Source: Thermodesulfovibrio sp. (GTDB lineage Bacteria; Nitrospirota; Thermodesulfovibrionia; Thermodesulfovibrionales; UBA6898). From it: 60,167 bases of DNA. The DNA lies in assembly GCA_013824615.1 (NCBI GenBank), contig PNOC01000020.1:1-60167 (forward strand), read 5' to 3'. Below the pieces are notes generated by a model. The model did not search any database. It had not been told where the DNA came from and saw only the letters and a list, made by a program, of their open reading frames with translations. Made by a program: the position numbers and the translations under genes. Shown piece by piece: positions 28,024 through 30,538 of the stretch; the first letter of the stretch is position 1; the number at the start of each line of letters is the position of its first letter.

Positions 28024-29283
28024 ATGGGAACAATCTCGATTTCCGAATTAAAAGAAAAAACCATTGATGAGCTGACGGATATGGCAAAAGAACTGAAGGT
28101 GGAGGGTGCCAGCGGCTTGCGGAAACAGGACCTGATATTCGCAATCCTGCAGGCCCAGGCTGAAAATTCCGGAAACGTCTTCTCTGCCGGAGTTCTCGAG
28201 ATCCTTCCTGACGGCTTCGGCTTCCTCAGATCACCTGATTACAGTTATCTTCCCGGACCAGACGATATTTATGTTTCTCCCTCGCAGATTCGCAGGTTCA
28301 ACCTCAGGACCGGAGATCTCGTATCAGGCCAGATCAGACCTCCAAAGGAATCCGAGCGCTATTTTGCCCTGCTGAAGGTCGAGGCCATTAACCACGAATC
28401 TCCGGACGAGAACGTCAAAAGGCCTCTCTTTGATAACCTGATTCCCTACTATCCGACGGAGAGGATCAAGCTCGAATACGATCCTACCGATTATTCGACG
28501 CGTGTCATGGAATTTATCGCCCCTATCGGCATGGGGCAGAGAGGGATGATCGTTGCGGCGCCGAGAACCGGAAAGACGGTCCTGCTGCAGTCGATTGCCA
28601 AGGCGATCAAAAAGAACCACCGCGACATACACCTGATCATCCTCCTCATCGACGAACGGCCGGAAGAGGTGACTGACTGGAAACGGCAGGTCTCTTCTGC
28701 TGAAATCATCGCCTCAACCTTTGACGAGCCGCCGCAGCGCCACTGCCAGGTAGCTGAGATGGTCATCGACCGGGCCAAGCGTCTGGTGGAAAGCAAAAAA
28801 AATGTCGTCATTCTTCTCGACAGTATAACCCGTCTGGCCCGGGCCTATAACGCGATCATGCCGGCAAGCGGCAAGGTGCTTTCGGGCGGACTGGACTCAA
28901 ATGCCCTGCAGAGGCCGAAGAGATTCTTTGGTGCAGCGCGTAATATAGAGACCGGCGGCAGCCTCACGATTCTTGCGACGGCACTGGTCGATACCGGCAG
29001 CAGGATGGACGATGTCATCTTTGAGGAATTCAAAGGGACCGGCAATATGGAACTTCACCTTGACAGAAAGCTGGTCGACAAGAGGATATTCCCGACTATC
29101 GACATTAACAGTTCAGGGACAAGGAAAGAAGAGCTGCTTGTTGATAAAGAAGTCCTCTCCAGAATGTGGATTCTCCGGAAAGTCCTGAATCCGCTCAGCA
29201 CGGTCGAGAGCATGGAGTTCCTCCTCGGCAAACTGACCGGAACAAAGACGAACCGTGAGTTCCTGGATCTGATGAATAAATAG
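28024..29283 (+). CDS. rho: Transcription termination factor Rho
   Basis: This 419-residue hexameric RNA helicase ends transcription. [20 protein letters not shown] is the Rho N-terminal SAP-like helix domain. [18 protein letters not shown] and [19 protein letters not shown] form the cold-shock-type RNA-binding domain. [19 protein letters not shown] is Walker [17 protein letters not shown] is Walker B, and [20 protein letters not shown] contains the Q-loop. [13 protein letters not shown] is the R-loop region. The length is ordinary, with no large insertion. A small membrane protein and a multihaem cytochrome follow on the same strand. Confidence 0.96.
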
Positions 29284-29289
29284 TCCGGG

Positions 29290-29592
29290 ATGGAAAACAG
29301 GAAAAGGGCAAAGCGGTATCTTTTCATTGGCGCTGTTGTCGGAGGGGTCCTCAGCCTCTCTCTTGCCCTTCTCATGGATTCCATGTACGCTGACTCTCTG
29401 CAGGGAACGTGGCGGGATGCCATTGCCAAAGACCTCAATACTTTTTTTAAGCTGGGGGTCACCTCGGGCAGCATTATTGTCTATTTCTTTTTTGCAATCG
29501 TACTGGGCCTGCTGGCGGCCTTCGGAGGGCTTATGGGTTTTATCTTCTCCTTCTTTCTGTATAAATTCTTCAGCCTGCTGGGGTCAAAGTAG
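29290..29592 (+). CDS. Small membrane protein of unknown function (100 aa)
   Basis: The product has a basic start (MENRKRAKRY) and two predicted membrane helices, at about residues 10-30 and 55-95, joined by a short polar loop (SMYADSLQGTWRDAIAKDLN). No family was recognised. It begins 6 bp after the rho stop and ends 6 bp before the cytochrome, which argues for a shared transcript and possibly for work with the cytochrome at the membrane. The function is not known. Confidence 0.65.
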   Translation: MENRKRAKRYLFIGAVVGGVLSLSLALLMDSMYADSLQGTWRDAIAKDLNTFFKLGVTSGSIIVYFFFAIVLGLLAAFGGLMGFIFSFFLYKFFSLLGSK

Positions 29593-29598
29593 CCACGC

Positions 29599-30477
29599 AT
29601 GAGAGACCCCTCTTTCTTTTCAAAGTTTGTCGAGGAACACCATACTTCAATTATTTTACTGCTGCTGCTTATCTCCGTGGTTGGTGGTATCGTAGGCCTC
29701 AGATACTATAAGCATACCAAGGATGATCCTGAGTTCTGCATGTCCTGTCACGTAATGCAGGATGCCTTCAAAACCTGGCAGAAAAGCAAGCACCGTGACT
29801 TCACCTGCCAGAAATGCCATGTGATGAGTCTTCTGGAACAGAACAAGATGCTTATTTCGTATGTGGTCAAAGGGCCTACCGGCAGCACCAGCCAGACCCA
29901 TGGCCGCATCTCCCCGTGGGATGCCTGCAGGTCATGCCACCTTTCTGAAGTTGCTCAGGGGTCTTTGACACTGAATAAGTCATACGGACATGCAAAGCAT
30001 GTCTTTATGCAGAAGATCAACTGCAGCAAATGCCACATGGGCTCACTGCACCTTTTCACCCCTAATGAGCAGGCCTGCTCCGAGTGCCATAAGGATAAAG
30101 TCATCCATGGCATGGGAATGGAAGGCATGTCCTGTCTGAAATGCCACAACTACAGCGAAAAAGACCCAAAGATGATCACGACGGAAAAATGCATGTCCTG
30201 CCATAAGAATATACCGACGAAAGGGGTCATGGCCGCGCTGAAATGTTTTGACTGCCATCATCCCCACGGCAAGATCAAACCTACAAGCCAGGACTGCCTG
30301 AAGAGCTGCCACGGCAATGAGGCCAAGGTGGGCCAGCATGAGCTCCATATGACCAAGGCCAAGATGAGCTGCCTGGATTGCCATAAGGCCCATGTCTGGA
30401 CGGTCGGCAAAAAAGAGGCCGGCAACCTCTGCAACCGCTGCCACAAACTAAAAGACCCGGCGACGTTTATCTATTAA
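29599..30477 (+). CDS. Membrane-anchored multihaem cytochrome c, NapC/NirT-like (11 haem motifs)
   Basis: This 292-residue protein has one N-terminal membrane helix (about 15-37, IILLLLLISVVGGIVGL) and a periplasmic haem domain. Ten CXXCH motifs are seen (CMSCH, CQKCH, CRSCH, CSKCH, CSECH, CLKCH, CMSCH, CFDCH, CLDCH, CNRCH) plus one CLKSCH, a CX3CH variant between the eighth and the last two. The first part, with FCMSCHVMQ, looks like NapC/NirT/NrfH quinol dehydrogenases, which hand electrons from the quinone pool to periplasmic partners. It is larger than NrfH (4 haems), so it may be an independent electron-transfer unit. No reductase gene is next to it. A strong terminator follows. Confidence 0.85.
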   Translation: MRDPSFFSKFVEEHHTSIILLLLLISVVGGIVGLRYYKHTKDDPEFCMSCHVMQDAFKTWQKSKHRDFTCQKCHVMSLLEQNKMLISYVVKGPTGSTSQTHGRISPWDACRSCHLSEVAQGSLTLNKSYGHAKHVFMQKINCSKCHMGSLHLFTPNEQACSECHKDKVIHGMGMEGMSCLKCHNYSEKDPKMITTEKCMSCHKNIPTKGVMAALKCFDCHHPHGKIKPTSQDCLKSCHGNEAKVGQHELHMTKAKMSCLDCHKAHVWTVGKKEAGNLCNRCHKLKDPATFIY

Positions 30478-30478
30478 A

Positions 30479-30513
30479 TCAGGAAGGCCGGGGTTTCCCG
30501 GCCTTCCTGATTT
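30479..30513. terminator. Terminator between the cytochrome and clpB, possibly bidirectional
   Basis: TCAGGAAGGCCGGG (30479-30492) pairs with CCCGGCCTTCCTGA (30497-30510) around GTTT: a perfect 14-bp stem between two convergent genes. The T run is short on the plus strand (TTT). Confidence 0.8.
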
Positions 30514-30538
30514 ACTGCTTTCACTGCTGCAGTAGCCG

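Follow-up and report, generated by a model that had tools for sequence, protein, structure and literature searches.

Directly behind rho and a gene for a small membrane protein (hereafter SMP, 100 residues), this genome carries the gene of a NapC/NirT-type membrane cytochrome c of 292 residues with eleven predicted haem sites. The locus raises the question of where such a chain would obtain its electrons and to what it would hand them on: in the source genome neither a reductase nor any acceptor adjoins the gene, and no other CXXCH-bearing reading frame of at least 80 residues was called in the window (the whole 60,167-nucleotide stretch that was analysed). The original prediction had described a NapC-like cytochrome of the quinol type, linked to SMP, that might pass electrons outward.

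The locus and its transcript boundaries

Gene order and spacing are as predicted, with 6 bp between rho and SMP and a further 6 bp between SMP and the cytochrome gene, all three reading in the same direction (Table 1). Our scan of the + strand returned a single promoter match, upstream of rho, and none from rho to the cytochrome gene, making co-transcription with rho likely, though weakly supported. At the other end, a strong hairpin separates the gene from the convergent clpB and is likely to mark the end of both transcripts, so that the cytochrome transcript probably stops there; it is missing from the terminator scan list, as that scan requires a T run and this hairpin is without one.

Table 1. 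Features of the cytochrome locus, in window coordinates
Feature	Position	Strand	Remark
rho	28024-29283	+	same direction as SMP and the cytochrome gene
SMP, small membrane protein, 100 aa	29290..29592	+	conserved partner gene
Eleven-haem NapC/NirT-type membrane cytochrome c, 292 aa	29599..30477	+	10 CXXCH + 1 CX3CH
Sole hydrophobic stretch of the cytochrome, residues 17-37	29647..29709	+	read from sequence
Haem-1 site CMSCHVM, residues 47-53	29737..29757	+	CxxCHxM signature
Haem site 9 CLKSCH (CX3CH), residues 233-238	30295..30312	+	atypical motif
18-bp perfect hairpin, cytochrome gene/convergent clpB	30475..30514		-35.3 kcal/mol, z -8.2

The single hydrophobic stretch of the cytochrome is taken as its membrane anchor, while SMP displays two such stretches (judged by eye). 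Two family assignments for SMP were rejected, DUF4064 on a sub-threshold Pfam match (18 vs 32.1 bits) and BlpZ on a weak NCBIfam match. Its columns conserved at 70% or more contain no His or Cys, so SMP is unlikely to carry haem.

Haem sites and family relationships

Conservation was read from an alignment of 81 Nitrospirota proteins, namely that of the window and 80 orthologues chosen from the match lists; the 80 neighbourhoods considered below are likewise a selection from the near-relative and phylum lists, not the whole of them. Listed matches that were left out include G002, which is divided between two contigs, G115, G082 and G131 (a single internal stop), G332 and G279 (a single stop) and G160 (six stops). 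The predicted inventory of haem sites is borne out: sites 1-10 are intact in every aligned protein and all eleven in 70 of the 81, site 11 being missing from the other 11. The accompanying figure of about one haem per 26 residues was also right (26.5 residues per site), but the density is ordinary rather than extreme: among PDB entries there are short tetrahaem chains of 86-91 residues, or 22-23 per haem.

The CX3CH motif at site 9 merits closer description. Residues C233, C237 and H238 are invariant (81/81), the motif being CX3CH in 69 proteins and CXXCH in 12, aligned to the same columns with a one-residue gap. Because both cysteines and the histidine are never lost, and other members of the family have a standard CXXCH in their place, site 9 is very probably haem-loaded, in agreement with the original prediction. 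There is precedent for the longer motif, both in ImcH, which has one (PMC6295460), and in MmcA, for which a CXXXCH peptide is reported to have been shown to carry haem (PMC11024163). On the tree, the two states require two changes, the first at the split between classes and the second in L116, whose CXXCH lies inside the CX3CH clade (L116 is a long branch of unsure placement). This natural swap between CX3CH and CXXCH at one site offers a clean test of haem attachment to the longer motif.

Candidate distal ligands can be assigned in matching number. Ten histidines outside the motifs (65, 101, 131, 134, 151, 170, 223, 247, 250 and 265) are each conserved in 72 to 81 of the 81 proteins, and Met53 of the haem-1 CxxCHxM in 74, giving eleven candidates for eleven haem sites. 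For attachment of the haems, ResB matches at three places in the source genome (two of them strong) point to a Ccs system as the probable route.

The CxxCHxM arrangement is a signature of NrfH-type quinol dehydrogenases (PMC10654088), and the Pfam model for the NapC/NirT N-terminal region, PF03264, matches residues 18-77 at 33.4 bits (gathering cut-off 24.1), the only PF03264 match in the source genome. Assignment as a quinol-type membrane cytochrome is hence supported at the level of motif and profile; the label NapC-like holds for the N-terminus alone, beyond which Pfam c3/c7 models take over. None of the more specific NCBIfam models fits: NrfH (TIGR03153, 52.5 bits) and DmsE/MtrA (TIGR03508, 35.3 bits) score far under their cut-offs of 134.2 and 192.2 bits, as does the TorC model.

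A profile built from 28 family members aligns at its N-terminus with NrfH (2j7a, E 7.5e-11) and at residues 158-287 with 6r2q chain A (E 8.1e-11). The latter is listed as a cystathionine beta-synthase, yet the aligned sequence is dense in CxxCH; we take 6R2Q to be the MtrCAB structure and its chain A to be MtrA. Given the location of these two matches, the cytochrome reads as a quinol-dehydrogenase head followed by an MtrA/c7-like tail, most likely a familiar type of electron-relay protein in enlarged form. Resemblance to 2j7a does not extend past haem 2, with the consequence that counterparts of NrfH Lys82 and Asp89 are not placeable. From a low-confidence AlphaFold2 model (six sequences, mean pLDDT 39.9, pTM 0.20) we draw the N-terminal helix, residues 15-42, and nothing else.

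Partner genes and candidate acceptors

Of 61 near-relative genomes, 51 match the cytochrome and 42 have an orthologue as judged from the scores; across the phylum 283 of 395 genomes match, many of them weakly and not necessarily as orthologues. The named relatives are Nitrospirae/Nitrospirota MAGs. No description of the eleven-haem family was found in the literature searched, within which this conserved family is apparently undescribed; a 2026 paper using both "undecaheme" and "NapC/NirT" deals with other MAGs and with the conduits and inner partners found there (PMC13264449).

The link to SMP proved stronger than had been claimed. Of the 81 neighbourhoods, 41 contain an SMP: in 32 it immediately precedes the cytochrome gene and shares its strand, in 3 it is upstream but on the opposite strand, and in 6 it occurs elsewhere within ~6.5 kb. 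These counts rest on SMP matches, as the ORF caller missed some SMPs. Of the 61 genomes, 41 have both SMP and the orthologue, 3 have one without the other and 17 have neither; the two lie within 8 kb of each other in 31 genomes and within 1.5 kb in 28. With rho clustered near the gene in only 25 of 81 neighbourhoods, the rho link is local and the SMP link wider. Separately, L073, L089, L093, L097 and others carry, 1-2 kb downstream of the gene, small membrane proteins of ~107-111 residues that are distinct from SMP; this group numbers 27 copies over 16 loci, frequently in runs of two or three.

A search for porin-cytochrome genes elsewhere in the source genome identified a candidate conduit on contig C4 (75699-82409; L151:7700-14410), where an MtrC-like 10-haem lipoprotein, a porin-like protein (406 residues, below Pfam cut-offs), a 9-haem protein and a 10-haem lipoprotein are encoded in a row. 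This gene row would suit a cytochrome dedicated to the entry step of extracellular electron transfer (EET), feeding electrons from quinol through the eleven-haem wire and the C4 conduit to minerals or partner cells in the manner of ImcH or CymA in metal reducers; in the same direction point the 706 CXXCH-pattern matches of the genome (143 for the reversed control pattern) and a report of iron-reduction cytochrome genes in Thermodesulfovibrionia (PMC8478452). However, the conduit is unlinked to the cytochrome gene in the source genome, and its porin occurs in 13 of the 42 gene-bearing genomes against 2 of the 19 others, which is not significant (p=0.11, Fisher, kinship ignored; the count covers the C4 porin family alone and leaves out a weak match in G053, E 3.7e-6). 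For the predicted outward transfer there is thus a candidate conduit without a significant tie to the gene, and we regard a dedicated role in it as unlikely. Elsewhere in the same genome, C1 encodes a multihaem protein with nine CXXCH and one CX3CH (CLAACH) before a 693-residue ORF (L153:3557-4612), and a search for cytochrome c3 gave only two weak matches.

The conserved neighbourhood, in turn, associates the gene with other membrane redox modules. In some families it lies near genes for a 7-haem protein, a cytochrome b561 and a 6-9-haem lipoprotein (b561 within 8.5 kb in 7 of 81 neighbourhoods), in others near an FeS/NrfD/multihaem set (also 7 of 81), and in several neighbourhoods near a sensor kinase and an NtrC-type regulator. 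Strong b561 matches occur in 36 of the 42 gene-bearing genomes and in 4 of the 19 others (Fisher tests here too ignore kinship). In eight genomes the frame of the b561 match contains one stop, TAG in G012, G017, G019, G021 and G023 and TGA in G008, G049 and G058, either real or a match overrunning the gene's own end. The source genome has its b561 set at C3, where a further gene set (L154:579-5571), which we take to be DsrMKJOP-like, suggests sulphur respiration in the host.

These associations would also suit a larger membrane assembly, in which SMP and either set would exchange electrons with the cytochrome and cycle them between quinones of different potential, with no terminal acceptor being fed. 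SMP behaves in keeping with this: of the 10 genomes that have it outside an 8-kb range of the cytochrome gene, 5 have it <0.9 kb from the b561 gene. So does a paralogue at C34 (L131:5843-10044; 38% identity over residues 21-221), which lies beside hemL, 4-haem, FeS and NrfD genes. This paralogue shares eleven sites and NrfH-type similarity with the cytochrome of the window, but differs in having CXXCH at all eleven and in its place in an FeS/NrfD-type set; it has no PF03264 match at E 0.01. (Copies of it in L141 have CX3CH.) Against such an assembly, either set is missing from most neighbourhoods, that of the window included, and we judge this alternative less likely again than a dedicated EET step.

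The predicted absence of an adjacent reductase holds beyond the source genome: no conserved terminal reductase was seen in the neighbourhood clusters of the 81 loci or in the maps listed among 28 of them; at one locus, L129, a large oxidoreductase-like ORF lies 4.8 kb downstream of the gene. At C6 (L155:7761-9440) the source genome encodes an NrfA-like protein whose eight haem sites comprise seven CXXCH and one CXXCK, near genes presumably for CO dehydrogenase and methyl transfer. This protein and the TIGR03153 match would lend themselves to a simple NrfH-like role, in which the cytochrome donates electrons to a nitrite-type multihaem reductase encoded elsewhere. Such a role is very improbable, and a dedicated NrfH function was rejected: the TIGR03153 match is below its cut-off, the C6 gene is not adjacent, and NrfA-type PF02335 matches over the cut-off (33 of 61 genomes) are absent from several genomes that have the cytochrome gene.

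A putative quinol-oxidising hub and its known counterparts

We return to the cytochrome itself, which is probably a hub that resembles CymA, oxidises quinol and has its own wire built in. It would be a NapC/NirT-type quinol dehydrogenase of the inner membrane, anchored by one N-terminal helix, in which a tetrahaem-type head is continued by about seven haems of c3/c7/MtrA character within one chain. A Met-ligated haem 1 would sit at the quinol site, with the other haems forming a wire into the periplasm and supplying electrons to multihaem cytochromes of the periplasm and outer membrane, so that the protein would serve as a distribution hub like Shewanella CymA; the C4 conduit and the C6 octahaem protein are candidate branches. 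SMP would be a non-redox membrane partner, aiding siting beside, or assembly with, further redox modules of the membrane, the 7-haem/cytochrome b561/9-haem set in particular. A hub would account for the broad conservation of the family, for neighbours that vary and for the absence of any fixed reductase. Outward transfer is possibly one branch of the hub and not its defining job, given that the conduit porin is present in so few (13 of 42) of the genomes with the gene. We infer quinol oxidation, the direction of flow, the acceptors and the role of SMP, and flow could be reversed, i.e. toward quinone reduction.

If so, this widespread family may link the quinone pool of mostly uncultured Nitrospirota to periplasmic or outside acceptors. 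More tentatively, and with some doubt, the cytochrome could serve Nitrospirota as the principal quinol oxidase in periplasmic and extracellular respiration, docked by SMP to redox modules, and a fourth architecture beside CymA, CbcL and ImcH that joins a quinol head and a trans-periplasmic haem wire in one chain. A 2018 survey of electron-exporting quinol oxidases gives, for Nitrospirae, no CymA, one of CbcL type and no ImcH homologue (PMC6295460).

With NrfH, NapC and CymA the cytochrome has in common a single N-terminal anchor, a CxxCHxM at haem 1 and a match over the anchor and haems 1-2, whereas those proteins are described as having 4 or 5 haems (PMC9600427) against its eleven sites, and it is without an adjacent partner reductase. 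It falls outside CymA, which is tetrahaem, and outside NrfH, both by profile score and for want of an adjacent nrfA. ImcH of Geobacter, also a quinol oxidase related to NapC, likewise exceeds four haems and has one CX3CH, but is described with three membrane helices and the CX3CH beside them (PMC6295460), whereas the cytochrome of the window has one hydrophobic stretch, its anchor, and its CX3CH at site 9 of 11, which places it outside that family also. The C-terminal part resembles MtrA/DmsE and the small c3/c7 cytochromes, matching 6r2q chain A and STC-like chains, but is here fused to an anchor of quinol-dehydrogenase type. CbcL, MtrH and MtoC couple a quinone site to many haems in one chain, CbcL by means of a six-helix b-type domain (PMC6295460) that the cytochrome of the window does not have. 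Belonging to none of ImcH, CymA or NrfH by these features, the eleven-haem cytochrome may nonetheless work like them.
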